In this document: one piece after another, positions 9,398 through 17,037 of the stretch
Layout: every line of letters starts with the position of its first letter
Position numbering within the stretch: the stretch's first letter is position 1
Program-made: the position numbers and the translations under genes
NCBI GenBank assembly: GCA_019429275.1
Contig: JAHYJC010000022.1
Location: forward strand, 1 to 64,000
Origin: Lentimicrobium sp.
GTDB taxonomy: Bacteria; Bacteroidota; Bacteroidia; Bacteroidales; Lentimicrobiaceae
DNA: 64,000 nucleotides
Reading direction: 5' to 3'
The notes under the pieces: model-generated
What the model saw: only the letters and a program-made list of their open reading frames with translations
Told to the model about the DNA's origin: nothing
The model's database searches: none

Positions 9398-9884
9398 ATT
9401 AAAAGTGGATTAGTTGTTTGTTAATTGGAAATATCTTGCTAAGAGTGAACTTAAAGGTAAGGTGTCAAATAAATTATTTATTTACAAAAATAAGTCATTT
9501 TTATATTGGCTTTCTCATTAAATCTTAAACAATTTGACGAAAAGTTCTTAACAGATTATTTGAATTACTTCTATACTGTAAATCAATTACATAGCGAAAT
9601 ATTAGAATTTTCATAATCATTTCACATGAATGACATAACTTCAAAAATAATTCAAAAATTCAAGTTACAAAAACACTATTTAAACTGTACAGACTTATAT
9701 AAATTACAACATTTTATTAACTTAAAACATAACAAAAAATATTTAAATAAATGAAAAACAAGTTATTAAAATAATATATAACTCTACAATATAAAATTGG
9801 TCTGGTTTCATGTAAAACATTTTTTGTTTTATTCCTATGTATTTTGTGTTAGTTTTGAAAAGCTATTCATCAAAGTATCAAACC
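9398..9884. promoter_or_regulatory. AT-rich divergent promoter region
   Basis: These 487 bases between the minus-strand T9SS gene and the plus-strand phosphate operon are very AT-rich and contain no ORF I would defend. Near-consensus -7 elements are visible: on the minus strand TACCTTTA at 9459-9452, and on the plus strand a TATTTTG-like element about 45 bases before the DUF47 start. No clear Pho-box-like direct repeat was seen. Confidence 0.45.
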
Positions 9885-10532
9885 ATGTTGCTCTTCAGGC
9901 ATGCGCAGAAGTCTATCGAATTGATTGACAGTTTCCTGAATCTGATTGATCAGGGGTCAATACTCTTTAAGGAAGGCGTAAAAAACTATCTTTATGGTAA
10001 CCGGGAAAGTTTTTTAAGCAATCTTATGACTTTATCAAACCTTGAAACTGAAGCAGATATTCTGAAAAGGAAAACTGAGAACATCCTGTATACCCAATCC
10101 TTAATGCCTCAACTGAGAGGCGACATACTAAAACTTCTGGAAGAGCTGGATAATATCATTGATCTGGCGAAAACAAGCCTGTTTCAGTTTGATGTTGAAA
10201 ATCCTTTTATACCTGCTGAATTAAATCAGGATATGGTTAAACTCACCGAACTTTCAGCAGCTGCCATTGAATCCGTTATTCCTGCAGCACGGGCTTATTT
10301 TAAAGATCCTGAATCTGTTAAAGAGAAACTTCACAGAGTTTATCTTTATGAAAAAGAGGCTGATAAGCTTGCAGATGCCATCAAGAGAAAGGTTTTTCAT
10401 GAAATGCCGGGACTGAAACTCAGTGAAAAATTTCATTTGCGGTACTTTACATTACATATTGAAACATTATCAGATGCTGCTGAAAAGGCGGCAGATGTAC
10501 TATCAATAATGGCAATTAAAAGAACCCTTTGA
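9885..10532 (+). CDS. PhoU-like DUF47 family protein
   Basis: This protein of about 215 residues is a predicted all-helical bundle of the DUF47 (TIGR00153, PhoU-related) family. It has the typical N-terminal acidic-helical segment with charged repeats such as NLETEADILKRK and EKEADKLADAIKRK, and it ends in helices rich in Ala, Glu and Asp. DUF47 proteins are usually encoded just upstream of PiT phosphate permeases and are thought to modulate them, as here: 17 bases separate it from the PiT gene. I chose the ATG at 9885, giving an MLLFRHAQKS start of typical family length. An upstream start at 9837 would add 16 residues that resemble no family member and would overlap the promoter-like sequence. 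Confidence 0.85.
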   Translation: MLLFRHAQKSIELIDSFLNLIDQGSILFKEGVKNYLYGNRESFLSNLMTLSNLETEADILKRKTENILYTQSLMPQLRGDILKLLEELDNIIDLAKTSLFQFDVENPFIPAELNQDMVKLTELSAAAIESVIPAARAYFKDPESVKEKLHRVYLYEKEADKLADAIKRKVFHEMPGLKLSEKFHLRYFTLHIETLSDAAEKAADVLSIMAIKRTL

Positions 10533-10549: not shown

Positions 10550-12304
10550 ATGCAGTTTTTAATTTTCCTGTCCAGCGGTCTGTTTTTAGGATGGTCATTA
10601 GGGGCTAACGATGCTGCCAATATTTTTGGATCTGCCGTAGGTTCCAAGATGATAAGGTTTAGGAAAGCGGCGTTGATTGCCAGTATTTTTGTTGTTATCG
10701 GCGCGGTATTTCAGGGCCGTGGCAATGCAGAAACACTTTCTGGTTTGGGTGCTGTTGATGCATTGGCAGGTGGATTTGCTGTTTCTTTGTGCGCAGCTTT
10801 CACGGTTTACTGGATGACCCGTTATGCCATTCCAGTTTCAACAAGTCAGGCCATTGTTGGTGCCATTATTGGCTGGACCATTTTTGTCGGGAAGCAAATC
10901 GATTACAGGATTTTATCAATAATTGTAAGCACATGGGTTACAAGCCCGATACTTGGACTTGTATTTGCTGCTCTGCTCTTTTTGGCATTCCGTTCACTTC
11001 TGCGCCGCCTCAAAATTCATGTTGTAATACTTGATGCTTACATAAGAATATCACTTATCGTTGTTGGCGCCTTTGGCGCCTATAGTTTGGGAGCCAACAA
11101 TATTGCCAATGTAATGGGAGTATTTGTCCACGCTGCACCGGATATTCTTTTGGATTTTGGATTATTTACTCTTGACGGAGTACAGTTGCTATTCCTTATT
11201 GGTGGAATTGCCATTTCAACGGGAATTTTTACCTATAGCGAAAGGGTGATGAATACTGTTGGCAACGGCATACTTTCACTTACATCCGAAGCGGCCATTG
11301 TGGTGGTTTTGTCTCAGGCGCTGGTGTTATTTGTTTTTTCATCATCATGGCTTTCTAATTCTTTCGTTTCCATTGGCCTTCCGGCCATTCCTCTGGTCCC
11401 GGTTTCAAGCACCCAGGTGGTTGTGGGCTCAGTTATTGGAATTGGTATGGTAAAGGGAGCCAGGGAGATCAAATACAGAGCACTTGGCGAAATTGCTTTA
11501 GGATGGATAACCACACCATTGGCTGCGGGTGTACTTACCTATTTTGTACTGTTCTTTGTGCAGAATGTTTTTCATCTCGATGTAACATCTTCAGGACTAG
11601 CATCAGGAGGTTCGGTCATAGGAAATGCTGATCGTGAAATATTACCCGGAACGTATCAATATGTTAATTTGATCCTACCTGGTGTCATGATATTAACATC
11701 ACTGGCAATAGTTGTTCTGGTATTTTTGGTCCTCAGGCAGCAAAAACTCAGGTTGAAAGCCGAAAATGAACTTCTGCAAGAGCAAAATAACTATTTCCAG
11801 GCTCAAAAGGCATTGAGTAATATGGAGGTTTCAGCCATACAGACAGAAAACAATTTGCTGAACCATAAACTTGAACAACGCAGGAGTGAATACACAAATA
11901 TTGCATTAAATATCAGCAGTCAGAAAGAATTTCTTCAACGCATAGCCGGTCTGGTTGATCAAATCAGAAATTCAGAGCATAAAACTGAGCAGGATGAACG
12001 ATTAAGAGACTTAAGTCTTATTCTTAAGCAAAAAATGTCGTTTGCCAGCGAAACAGAAGAGTTCTACTCAAAAATTGAATTGACCGACAGAGAATTCAGG
12101 CAGAAACTTACCAGTGCTTTTCCCGGCATTACTGAGCAGGAGAAGAAACTGGCAATTCTGTTAAGGCTGAATCTCTCTTCAAAGGAAATTTCTTCGATGC
12201 TTGGGATTTCGCCTAAAAGTGTTGAAATTGCAAGGTATCGGCTTCGTAAACGTATTAACCTCAAAAAAGGTGATAACCTGATTCAATACATACAAAACCT
12301 TTAA
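10550..12304 (+). CDS. PiT inorganic phosphate permease fused to coiled coil and LuxR-type HTH
   Basis: Residues 1-396 form a PiT-family phosphate transporter: about ten membrane helices, the duplicated signature GANDAANIFG (about 18) and GANNIANVMG, and the VPVSSTQVVVG motif of the second half. After the last helix the chain continues without a break into a polar, Gln/Glu-rich coiled coil (about 398-500). It ends in a C-terminal helix-turn-helix (about 525-575; LSSKEISSMLGISPKSVEI then RYRLRKRINL), like the LuxR-type domains at the ends of many Bacteroidota regulators. Ordinary PiT proteins lack this DNA-binding tail. The frame is open throughout, so the fusion is not an assembly join of two ORFs within this sequence. 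It lies between the DUF47 gene and a porin gene. A membrane-tethered phosphate transceptor-regulator is inferred, not shown. Confidence 0.9.
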   Translation: MQFLIFLSSGLFLGWSLGANDAANIFGSAVGSKMIRFRKAALIASIFVVIGAVFQGRGNAETLSGLGAVDALAGGFAVSLCAAFTVYWMTRYAIPVSTSQAIVGAIIGWTIFVGKQIDYRILSIIVSTWVTSPILGLVFAALLFLAFRSLLRRLKIHVVILDAYIRISLIVVGAFGAYSLGANNIANVMGVFVHAAPDILLDFGLFTLDGVQLLFLIGGIAISTGIFTYSERVMNTVGNGILSLTSEAAIVVVLSQALVLFVFSSSWLSNSFVSIGLPAIPLVPVSSTQVVVGSVIGIGMVKGAREIKYRALGEIALGWITTPLAAGVLTYFVLFFVQNVFHLDVTSSGLASGGSVIGNADREILPGTYQYVNLILPGVMILTSLAIVVLVFLVLRQQKLRLKAENELLQEQNNYFQAQKALSNMEVSAIQTENNLLNHKLEQRRSEYTNIALNISSQKEFLQRIAGLVDQIRNSEHKTEQDERLRDLSLILKQKMSFASETEEFYSKIELTDREFRQKLTSAFPGITEQEKKLAILLRLNLSSKEISSMLGISPKSVEIARYRLRKRINLKKGDNLIQYIQNL

Positions 12305-12315
12305 ATCAAACCAAT

Positions 12316-13701
12316 ATGAGAAAAATTAAACAAATGAAATGGGTTGTATTGCTGATGGCCATTTGGTTAAATGGCAACATCATAAAAGCACAGGAGACAG
12401 ATACTACCGTGCGCTACAACCAATACGGGGTAAAAGTAAACCGTACACGACTTCAGGCGGAGGAGCGAAATGGAATTTTGGTACTGGAAAGCAAAGACCA
12501 GAAATACAAAATCTGGTACGATGCACGCGTGCAGCTGGATGGTGCCATGTTTTTCGGCGATACTTATAATCCGATAGGCAACGGTACCTCAATTCGCCGT
12601 GCCCGTTTCGCAGTAAAAAGTCAGTTTACTGAACAATGGTATGGAGAGTTTGATATGGATATTTCAAACTCCGAGCTTGAACTTAAAGATGCTTATCTGG
12701 AATTTTCGCCAAACCAAAACCTCAGTTTCAGAGCCGGTCATTTCAAAGAAGGTTTTTCTGTAGAATCAACTACCACATCAAGGTATTTGACCTTTATAGA
12801 GCGACCAATGGCTGTGCATATTTTTGCTCCCTCACGGCATATCGGTGTTTCTGCTATTTATAGTAAAAACTGGTTATTTGGTATGGGAGGTGTTCATTTT
12901 CAAACCGTAGGAGATCCTGAGGAACGCCTGTTTTCTAAAGACAACAACAAAGGCTATGGCGTGGATGAAGGTGTTTCATTCACAGGAAAACTTGTGGCTA
13001 TGCCTTTTTACAGCGATTATAATAAAGGTCTGCATTTTGGTATAGCAGGGTCTTATCGTACACCCAAATCGGATGCCGAAATCCGGGGCCACGAGCGCTA
13101 CAGCATACGTTCATTAACATCGATCAACCGGAAAAAGTATATGGATACTGATTTAATTCCTTTTGTTGATTATATAGTACTCGGAGACCTTGAACTTGCA
13201 GGATATTACAAAAACTTTCGTTTCCAGGGCGAATACCTGCTAAGCAATGTTCACAGGAAGAAATTTGATGAAGTTCTTCCAACAGAAAAGTTTGATGGAT
13301 GGTATGCTTTCGGAAGTGTGCTTCTTTTTGGAGGTAAATATAATTACAATACCAGCGAGGCTGAATTTACCCAACCAACCCGCGGCCAGAGCTGGGGCGA
13401 TTTGGAGCTATCATTTCGCTATGATTACCTGAGTTTAAATAGCAGCATGGATGGAATTATGGGTGGTGCCGGAGAAGGTTATACCCTTGGCCTCAATTAT
13501 CATGTAAACAACAACGTGAAAATCATGCTGAATTATGCCTACCTGAATCACGACCGCTACGCAAGTGGTAAAAATAAACTCTTTGTAGGCTACGATGAAA
13601 ACGGAGTACTTACCCGCGATCCCAGAAAGGTTGTTGATGCTATGGGCAAAGCAGGAGAGGACTTTAGCTTTGTAAGTGTAAGATTGGAAGTTGATTTTTG
13701 A
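12316..13701 (+). CDS. Phosphate-selective porin O/P-like outer-membrane protein
   Basis: This 461-residue protein has a signal peptide (about 1-25, cleavage near IIKAQ) and a beta-barrel-like body of alternating aromatic and polar strands ending in an aromatic C-terminal residue (VRLEVDF), as expected for an outer-membrane barrel. The features IRRARF, ELKDAYLEF and RAGHFKEGFS match the OprO/OprP porin family (Porin_O_P). It begins 11 bases after the PiT-HTH gene, so it is almost certainly co-transcribed, and would bring phosphate or polyphosphate across the outer membrane for the inner-membrane PiT. Substrate is inferred from family and context. Confidence 0.87.
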   Translation: MRKIKQMKWVVLLMAIWLNGNIIKAQETDTTVRYNQYGVKVNRTRLQAEERNGILVLESKDQKYKIWYDARVQLDGAMFFGDTYNPIGNGTSIRRARFAVKSQFTEQWYGEFDMDISNSELELKDAYLEFSPNQNLSFRAGHFKEGFSVESTTTSRYLTFIERPMAVHIFAPSRHIGVSAIYSKNWLFGMGGVHFQTVGDPEERLFSKDNNKGYGVDEGVSFTGKLVAMPFYSDYNKGLHFGIAGSYRTPKSDAEIRGHERYSIRSLTSINRKKYMDTDLIPFVDYIVLGDLELAGYYKNFRFQGEYLLSNVHRKKFDEVLPTEKFDGWYAFGSVLLFGGKYNYNTSEAEFTQPTRGQSWGDLELSFRYDYLSLNSSMDGIMGGAGEGYTLGLNYHVNNNVKIMLNYAYLNHDRYASGKNKLFVGYDENGVLTRDPRKVVDAMGKAGEDFSFVSVRLEVDF

Positions 13702-13721: not shown

Positions 13722-15794
13722 ATGAAAACAAAAATATTTTTATTGGTGCTGATCATTGCAGGACTCAGTTTCTCTTCCTGCGTGAAAGATGAAGTTTTCG
13801 AAGGTCCTCCTGTGTTGAGCGAGCTTTCAATTTCACCGCAGGCTCCGGGTGAAACTGACAATGTAATTGTAAGTATAAAAGCTACTGATATGAATGGAAT
13901 CAAATCAGTTACGCTTTTCTATAAAGTCGAACAAGGGTCTTTCATAAGCCTTGCAATGACAGGTATGGGAAGCACTCCCAACATCTATACAGCTCAGATT
14001 CCGGCCCAGGGAGCTGGGAAAACAGTTGCTTATTATGTTGAAGCTGAAAATGAGAACGGTAAAAAAGCTTTTGCGCCTAGTGGTGCTCCTGAAGCAACAG
14101 GTGCCTATACCATTGGAGCGCCAAGCATTGTGCTGAACGAAGTTTACAGCAGAGGTACTGTAGATGCTCCCGACTGGGTTGAAATTTATAATAACTCCGA
14201 TAGTCCTGCCGATATCAGTGGATATAAAGTCTATGATCCGGGTGGACAATCGGGAAGTAAACCTAAAAAGGAAATTCCTGCCGGAACTGTTCTTGCCGGC
14301 CGTGGATTTTATGTAATTGTGGTTGATGATGGCACAGAGAGTGGATTTGGTTTGTCAAGCGGAGGAGATCAGGTTTGGCTCGAAAATGCTTCGGGTAATA
14401 TAATCGACAATGTTGAACATCCTGCTTTTGAACCAACCCAGTCGTATGGTAGAATTCCTGATGGCACAGGTGCATGGCAAATTCTTGACAGGATTACCCG
14501 CGGTGCAGCAAACGATGATTCACCTCCCGCTCCGGTAATTCTGATCAATGAATTATATTCTCGCGGAACTGCCGAAAATCCTGACTGGATTGAAATTTAC
14601 AATGCAACTACAATGGCGGTGGATATCAGCGGTTATAAAATTTATGACAATGGCGGACAAGCCGGCACCAAACCCAAAAAAGAGATTCCTGCCGGTACAA
14701 CAATTCCTGCAAAAGGTTTCTATGTAATTGTGGTGGACGATACCGATGCAAGTGGATTTGGATTATCGAGCGGTGGTGAACAGGTTTGGTTTGAGAATGC
14801 TTCCGGAACAATAATAGACAATGTTACCTTCCCGGCTCTCGAAGAAACACAATCCTATGGCCGTTATCCCGATGGCGATGCCAACTGGCAGGTGTTGTTC
14901 ATTGCGACTCCGGGCGCAGCCAATGATAATTCTCCTGCCCCTGTGGCGGTTGTATTGATGAATGAAATTTACTCCAGGGGTAATGCTGAAAATCCTGACT
15001 GGATAGAAATTTTCAACACTTCCACAACCATTGCGGCTGATATCAGCGGATTTAAAATCTACGACAGTGGCGGACAAGCAGGCACCAAACCCAAAAAGGA
15101 GTTTCCGGCAGGAACAGTAATACAGCCCGGAGGATTTTTTGTAATTGTTGTGGATGATGCAGATGCCAGCGGTTTTGGACTTTCAAGCGGTGGTGAGCAG
15201 GTTTGGCTTGAAAATACGGCAGGAACAGTTGTCGATGATATTACATTCCCTGCACTTGCCGAAACTGAATCATATGGTCGTTATCCCGATGGTTCAGCCA
15301 ATCTGCAAATACTCAGCATTGTTACACCCGGCGCTGCAAACGACAATTCAACTCCTCCACCTGCTGTAGTCATCCTTATGAATGAGATTTACTCCCGTGG
15401 CACCGCCGAAGATCCCGATTGGATTGAAATCTACAACGGTTCAGCCATAGAAGTGGATATCAGTGGATTTAAAATTTATGATGGTGGTGGTCAGGCCGGT
15501 ACAAAACCTAAAAAGGAATTTCCAGCTGGAACTGTAATTCCTGCCGGTGGTTTCTTTGTTATTGTAACTGACGATGCTGATGCCAGCGGTTTTGGCCTTT
15601 CCAGCGGCGGTGAACAGGTTTGGCTCGAAAATGCAGCAGGAACTGTTATTGATGACATTACCTTCCCGGCATTCGAACCTACACAATCATACGGAAGAAA
15701 GCCTGACGGATCGGCCAACCTCTTTATTTTTACCGAAATAACCAGAGGGTCTTCTAACAACAACGCAGGAACACTGCCTAAATTAAGAAGATAG
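13722..15794 (+). CDS. Lipoprotein with four tandem lamin-tail domains
   Basis: A 690-residue lipoprotein with a type II signal peptide and lipobox LSFSSC (Cys about 20). An Ig-like segment (about 25-130) is followed by four near-identical lamin-tail (LTD) repeats of about 137-140 residues. Each opens with NE(I/V/L)YSRG, continues with DW(I/V)EIYN and SGFGLSSGG, and ends in QSYGR. Repeat starts at DNA level are near 14127, 14538, 14952 and 15372. Bacterial LTDs are often found on secreted or surface proteins and with nucleases, but no nuclease domain is present here. It is the last gene before the phosphate-operon terminator, 20 bases after the porin gene. Its link to phosphate (for example binding DNA or phosphate polymers at the surface) is an inference from position only. 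Confidence 0.88.
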   Translation: MKTKIFLLVLIIAGLSFSSCVKDEVFEGPPVLSELSISPQAPGETDNVIVSIKATDMNGIKSVTLFYKVEQGSFISLAMTGMGSTPNIYTAQIPAQGAGKTVAYYVEAENENGKKAFAPSGAPEATGAYTIGAPSIVLNEVYSRGTVDAPDWVEIYNNSDSPADISGYKVYDPGGQSGSKPKKEIPAGTVLAGRGFYVIVVDDGTESGFGLSSGGDQVWLENASGNIIDNVEHPAFEPTQSYGRIPDGTGAWQILDRITRGAANDDSPPAPVILINELYSRGTAENPDWIEIYNATTMAVDISGYKIYDNGGQAGTKPKKEIPAGTTIPAKGFYVIVVDDTDASGFGLSSGGEQVWFENASGTIIDNVTFPALEETQSYGRYPDGDANWQVLFIATPGAANDNSPAPVAVVLMNEIYSRGNAENPDWIEIFNTSTTIAADISGFKIYDSGGQAGTKPKKEFPAGTVIQPGGFFVIVVDDADASGFGLSSGGEQVWLENTAGTVVDDITFPALAETESYGRYPDGSANLQILSIVTPGAANDNSTPPPAVVILMNEIYSRGTAEDPDWIEIYNGSAIEVDISGFKIYDGGGQAGTKPKKEFPAGTVIPAGGFFVIVTDDADASGFGLSSGGEQVWLENAAGTVIDDITFPAFEPTQSYGRKPDGSANLFIFTEITRGSSNNNAGTLPKLRR
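14127..15750 (+). repeat. Four in-gene lamin-tail repeats (~415 bp period)
   Basis: The four LTD-coding units recur every 411-420 bp with strong DNA similarity, for example around the GGQAGTKPKKE- and SGFGLSSGGEQVW-coding stretches. Copies 2-4 are closest to each other, which points to internal duplication. Confidence 0.8.
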
Positions 15795-16569: not shown

Positions 16570-17037
16570 ATGGCAAACGAAATCGAAAAAAAATTTTTGG
16601 TGGTGGGTGAGTTTAAGCACCTTGCACATAAGCAAACCCGAATAACCCAGGGATATCTGTGTTCAGTACCCGAAAGAACCGTAAGAGTGAGAACAAAGGG
16701 CGATCGTGGATTTATTACCATCAAGGGAATCGGTAATGCTTCAGGTGCAAGCCGGTATGAATGGGAAAAGGAAATTCCCGAAACTGAAGTCAAGGAATTG
16801 CTTCAGATATGCGAACCGGGGGTGATCGATAAAACCCGCTACCAGGTAAAAGCAGGTCCACATACCTATGAAGTTGATGAGTTTTATGGTGAAAATCAGG
16901 GACTGACGGTTGCTGAAGTTGAATTGTCGGATGAAAATGAAACTTTTGAAAAACCTGATTGGCTGGGAGAAGAAGTTACGGGAGTTGTAAAGTATTACAA
17001 TTCAATGCTTATGAAGCATCCTTACACAAAGTGGTAG
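16570..17037 (+). CDS. CYTH domain protein, probable inorganic triphosphatase
   Basis: A compact 155-residue CYTH protein with the diagnostic EIEKKFLV (ExExK) at residues 4-11, then TVRVRTKGDRGFITIKG with paired basic residues, YEWEKEIP, KTRY, and YEVDEFYG...LTVAEVEL, all typical of the short bacterial CYTH type. Members of this class hydrolyse inorganic triphosphate (triphosphate tunnel metalloenzymes); some related proteins are class IV adenylate cyclases or thiamine triphosphatases. The short length and lack of an added CHAD domain favour inorganic triphosphatase. It lies between the CYTH-like gene and an SLC13 permease, in a run of four same-strand genes. Confidence 0.85.
   Translation: MANEIEKKFLVVGEFKHLAHKQTRITQGYLCSVPERTVRVRTKGDRGFITIKGIGNASGASRYEWEKEIPETEVKELLQICEPGVIDKTRYQVKAGPHTYEVDEFYGENQGLTVAEVELSDENETFEKPDWLGEEVTGVVKYYNSMLMKHPYTKW

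Follow-up and report, generated by a model that had tools for sequence, protein, structure and literature searches.

A PiT-type phosphate permease fused to a LuxR-type DNA-binding domain in Bacteroidales, a candidate membrane-bound regulator of its own operon

The window analysed here, 64,000 nucleotides of a Lentimicrobium sp. genome (GCA_019429275.1, contig JAHYJC010000022.1), carries on its forward strand an operon with the gene order DUF47 - PiT-HTH - Porin_O_P - LTD. The first gene (9885-10532) encodes a DUF47/PhoU_div protein (TIGR00153-like; Pfam PF01865, E 1.6e-18), and its start was corrected from the listed 9837 to 9885 through conservation of the motif MxxFxHAxKSIELI. It is followed by the fusion gene (10550-12304) and, 11 bp past it, by a conserved neighbour of the phosphate-selective porin O/P family, Porin_O_P (12316-13701; PF07396, E 6.1e-34). 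The last conserved gene of the operon (13722-15794; PF00932, E 2.3e-65) encodes a protein with four Lamin Tail Domains (LTD), which are similar tandem copies. Further downstream there is a gene with a CYTH domain, triphosphatase-like (16570-17037); CYTH-like genes were also found after the HTH-less PiT genes of two other loci (L122 and L123). The order of the four operon genes is kept in nearly all loci that have the fusion. A KSB1 contig (L081) shows the same order with a PiT gene that lacks the HTH, and this points to a phosphate operon that existed before it gained the HTH.

The fusion gene is a frame of 584 amino acids without any break, as the first-pass annotation had stated, and profile matches, orthologs and AlphaFold2 models agree on its parts: a PiT permease (residues 1-345), a linker, a transmembrane (TM) helix (about 374-392), a coiled coil (about 393-515) and a LuxR/NarL-type HTH (about 525-584). 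The PHO4 profile of Pfam matches residues 18-329 with 205 bits (E 1.9e-60, cut-off 33.7), and the PiT half resembles TmPiT (6l85) in sequence (E 6e-26) and in fold (Foldseek, E 1e-11). The motifs GANDAAN (N-terminal), PVST, GANNIAN (C-terminal) and PVSST are all intact, and on this basis the PiT core is probably still transport-competent. Both PiT signatures reported earlier are thus present, with the correction that the second reads GANNIAN, where N takes the position of D506 in human PiT2, a feature that nearly all relatives share whether or not they are fused.

For the C-terminus, where a GerE domain had been expected, the profile does recognize residues 528-579, but its score in the window protein (21.7 bits, E 1.5e-4) is slightly lower than the Pfam cut-off of 23.5; full-length orthologs of the fusion reach 28.0, 30.5 and 40.3 bits, all above it. 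The close likeness to LuxR-type output domains, also claimed earlier, is supported by the predicted structure. The AlphaFold2 model of the C-terminal 215 residues (pLDDT 82.9) consists of a long helix and a four-helix HTH, and its best Foldseek matches are the NarL/LuxR-family DNA-binding domains of StyR, EL222, DosR, FixJ and VpsT, with E-values of only 0.005-0.05 and, for the C-terminal domain of DosR, a TM-score of 0.73-0.78 on the target and an rmsd of about 2.1. The model of the full protein (pLDDT 71) contains the permease core, one helix of about 100 residues formed by TM segment and coiled coil, and the four-helix HTH. The Sigma70_r4_2 profile overlaps the GerE region of the window protein. 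A sigma factor instead of a LuxR HTH (Sigma70_r4_2, ECF matches) was rejected, since both profiles fall on the same HTH, Foldseek ranks NarL/LuxR first and the orthologs score higher with GerE.

Eleven hydrophobic TM-like segments precede the HTH in the window protein. Tagging data place the C-terminus of PiT1 and PiT2 outside the cell (PMC3126765). In the window protein an extra hydrophobic segment (374-392) is followed by the basic stretch RQQKLRLK just ahead of the coiled coil, and such a segment with its basic flank is present in the fused proteins and absent from the two unfused ones examined. Since the permease ends outside and one helix is added, hydropathy and homology would put the HTH in the cytoplasm. 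This topology, with the extra TM helix and RQQKLRLK, makes it plausible that DNA is bound while the protein is still in the membrane, as first proposed.

The full-length fusion was found in 12 of 19 genomes of the genus, the window's own included, and the 11 others share 62-77% identity with it. An order-wide sample of 295 genomes added 15 fused loci in 10 other Bacteroidales families (44-63% identity, some with longer linkers); in the same sample the fusion of G092 is interrupted by a TAA and that of G275 runs off its contig. One genus genome (G017) has no detected fusion gene, but a contig end there carries the divergent upstream gene together with the promoter of the operon and its boxes; a gene missed by the assembly is the probable explanation. 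The window's genome is a draft assembly in 108 contigs, and two genes joined by assembly or annotation could in principle give such a frame. However, over 25 assemblies contain the same frame, and one of these has just 2 contigs; the recurrence of the frame across the genus and 10 other families therefore rules out an assembly join; the probability we leave to an artefact is practically nil. No full-length fusion was found in the plasmid collection, and in the phylum sample (395 genomes) the close PiT relatives (47-58%) have no HTH and either end near residue 345 or carry an unrelated C-terminal extension. The literature searched contained no described PiT-HTH fusion, an absence which is no proof that none exists.

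Two kinds of HTH-less PiT proteins were also seen. Some orthologs (L064, L066-L073, L081 and L084) share another conserved C-terminal extension, EQKVVxxxPYEIT...GKRFxNKxxFRxEL, which is probably outside the cytoplasm because it has no TM helix. Others (L120 in G309, L121/L083 in G294) have the linker and a TM helix without the HTH, and represent possible cases of HTH loss or of a second fusion type; the L120 protein terminates just past LRQSEEKFWKNIK, which is similar to the start of a PAS domain.

In the PiT tree, built to see whether the fusion arose once or more often, the main fusion clade is solid (100/99), while five basal fusions (G177, G275, G079, G284 and Tobar) are not separated from HTH-less PiTs; long branches spoil the placement of the decayed members described below. 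In the tree of the HTH (last 125 residues) a 93/87 branch separates all fusions from the Reg_prop/Y_Y_Y/TPR regulators. Because the same TM-coiled coil-HTH module is found in the genus behind Reg_prop/Y_Y_Y propellers or TPR domains, the PiT permease takes the place of a sensor domain.

The main conserved elements upstream of DUF47 are a Bacteroidota -7 box, TAnnTTTG, and the heptamer CT[CA]TACA. In the window, the presumed operon promoter has its -7 box at 9850-9857 (forward strand, TAGTTTTG), at the same distance from the heptamers as in orthologs. Two operator-like heptamers on the same strand were delimited by ortholog footprint: the distal box A (CTGTACA, 9685-9691), 165 bp upstream of the -7 box and with a degenerate half CACTATT 11 bp ahead of it, and the proximal box C (CTCTACA, 9782-9788), 68 bp upstream. 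Across 35 loci with the HTH, the region from -260 to -20 contains CT[CA]TACA 53 times in forward and 5 times in reverse orientation (2.1 expected, maximum of 8 in 300 shuffles). In most loci, from several families, the boxes start 65-70, about 120-125 and about 161-168 bp upstream of the -7 box. Each is a lone heptamer, in some cases accompanied by an 11-bp direct repeat, and PhoB boxes typically have this arrangement too. At least one box is present in 27 of the 35 HTH-containing loci and in none of the 10 loci with an HTH-less PiT (Fisher p 1e-5, a value that ignores phylogeny and is not to be taken as a probability); since box and HTH both follow phylogeny, these loci do not count as independent cases of co-occurrence. 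We infer that the candidate boxes are bound directly by the fused HTH.

Genome-wide box counts come from pattern searches of 19 genomes. The pair of box C and -7 box was found in the genus at those fused operons which conform to the pattern; its other occurrences form a background similar to that of a reversed-pattern control. The pair of boxes A and C occurs at nine genus operons, including the contig end of G017, and in few other places. In the window's genome, pst has no CTMTACA box, and the corresponding check of G010 gave boxes only inside unrelated genes. A general Pho box was not supported, given the boxless pst of the window's genome and paired boxes almost confined to the fused operon.

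Decay of the transporter is seen in family f8, whose genomes are small (100 sampled) and whose gut-type nature is a guess based on genome size and sampling. One member, L131, has an intact PiT. Six f8 fusions have lost the GAND, PVST, GANN and PVSST motifs, and in this decayed set the mean pairwise identity is 21.6% for the PiT against 64.2% for the HTH; the corresponding values among intact fusions are 62.0% and 55.6%. DUF47 and Porin_O_P still flank the decayed fusions, and boxes or close variants are kept in 4 of the 6 loci. CTMTACA boxes were not seen in the decayed-PiT loci L125 and L126, nor in the intact-fusion loci L110 and L115. In L132 (2820-3803), a single draft contig, the PiT is absent and DUF47 is in frame with the coiled-coil end and the HTH (GerE, 28.3 bits, above the cut-off), with Porin_O_P next and one box or close variant upstream; a masked run of N lies within DUF47, away from the join. 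This gene is a sign that DUF47 itself may communicate with the HTH. The decayed relatives, by assumption gut bacteria, have apparently kept the protein as a regulator after the decay of the transporter, and since HTH, operon and most boxes are retained there, the regulatory role in that lineage probably does not depend on transport.

The phosphate signalling genes of the genus were also compared. PhoU above the cut-off of TIGR02135 is present only in G006, G014 and G018, which hold a canonical PstB and no fusion, and in no fusion-carrying genome of the genus. In the fused genomes that were looked at (the window's own and G010), the PstSCAB-like operon has no PhoU. The mutual exclusion of PhoU and fusion is suggestive and not strict, because three genomes (G002, G009 and G016) have neither. 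At G000:C34:24584-25309 (L199) there is a PstSCAB-like operon without PhoU, with a PstB-like protein below the PstB cut-off and a response regulator-like gene upstream.

Because the PiT decays while the HTH is kept, the boxes co-occur with the HTH and the fused genus genomes lack PhoU, we consider it likely that the protein is a membrane-integrated one-component autoregulator with the PiT phosphate permease as its sensor. The permease core would end outside the cytoplasm, and the added TM helix would carry coiled coil and HTH into it, where the HTH would bind the CT[CA]TACA heptamers that precede the operon promoter and would control DUF47 - PiT-HTH - Porin_O_P - LTD. Phosphate occupancy or the transport state of the PiT part may set HTH activity, with DUF47 as a probable partner. 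Activation seems more likely than repression, since the boxes stand upstream of the promoter elements. Phosphate is the presumed signal, from gene neighbourhood and family, and both the sign of regulation and the role of DUF47 are putative. The first-pass annotation had proposed a regulator of its own operon that senses phosphate flux. Control of the operon from the membrane gained comparative support from the conserved operator-like boxes inside 9398-9884, the interval named in that annotation, which occur together with the HTH, and from the HTH, operon and most boxes that outlast the PiT; flux sensing is matched at least as well by occupancy of a transporter-derived receptor or by input from DUF47.

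Alternatively, a separate response regulator of the Pho type might bind at the boxes, with the fused HTH acting elsewhere or only modulating it. PhoB boxes are 11-bp direct repeats, as are the A sites of L113, L127, L130 and L131. PhoB of the Bacteroides fragilis PhoRB system binds the pstC promoter (PMC3547664). However, a PhoB-like protein would be hard to reconcile with the pst results from the window's genome and G010, with paired boxes nearly unique to the fused operon genome-wide, with their absence from all ten operons of HTH-less PiTs and with their persistence beside decayed PiTs, and we regard it as unlikely. Release of the HTH from the membrane, by intramembrane proteolysis or an internal translation start, with the PiT setting only the release, would suit the position of a soluble segment (coiled coil and HTH, about 190 residues) after a single TM helix. 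This seems quite unlikely to us, as the conserved operon contains no protease gene and the authors of the DadR study propose that the signal is relayed to a DNA-binding domain within the same membrane protein (PMC9734109).

The solute carried or sensed might also be another oxyanion such as sulfate. The PiT family also includes the sulfate permease CysP, and the best NCBIfam match of the protein is in fact CysP (NF053884), although with 86 of 400 bits it falls far below the cut-off. With DUF47 and Porin_O_P as neighbours, the PHO4 score and the Na/phosphate transporter TmPiT as closest solved structure, we judge a solute other than phosphate very unlikely.

The proposed membrane-integrated autoregulator bears on the old question of whether transceptors sense by transporting or by binding. 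The family provides natural variants in the same operon, namely an intact PiT with HTH, a motif-less PiT with HTH and a DUF47-HTH without transporter, together with a defined candidate operator. In genomes that lack PhoU it would be a candidate circuit of phosphate control, and it suggests that DUF47, an uncharacterised neighbour of PiT permeases, takes part in signalling. In the window protein the motifs for transport and those for signalling are both intact. We propose only tentatively, and with some doubt, a true phosphate transceptor that would import phosphate, read its own occupancy, control the operon from the membrane and replace Pst-PhoU signalling, and that in gut Bacteroidales would have changed stepwise into a transport-dead receptor and, once, into a soluble DUF47-HTH regulator.

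The PHO4 core and both signature motifs are shared with the PiT family (TmPiT 6l85, PitA and PiT2), whose permeases lack the HTH and the extra TM-coiled coil and are regulated by separate systems. CbrA, an SLC5 transporter domain with a sensor kinase (PMC8871633), is also a transporter fused to a signalling output, and transport may be dispensable for its signalling; its output, however, is a histidine kinase of a two-component system, while PiT-HTH has the DNA-binding domain on the same chain. Bacteroidota membrane LuxR-type regulators with Reg_prop/Y_Y_Y or TPR domains have this TM - coiled coil - HTH output module as well, within the same genomes, but their sensor is a propeller or a TPR domain and not a permease. 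The 10-12-TM LuxR regulators of Coriobacteriia, such as DadR, HcdR and CadR of Eggerthella lenta (PMC9734109), are likewise one-component proteins with a polytopic N-terminal part of transporter size and a C-terminal LuxR-type HTH, encoded beside the genes that they switch on. The 11 TM-like segments of the window protein fall within their range of 10-12. Compared by description, the TM domains of DadR are of undefined, very diverse sequence, whereas here there is a recognisable PiT with intact motifs, an added TM helix with coiled coil and a DUF47 partner. By analogy, PiT-HTH may be seen as a variant of these transporter-like membrane LuxR regulators that would work like DadR.
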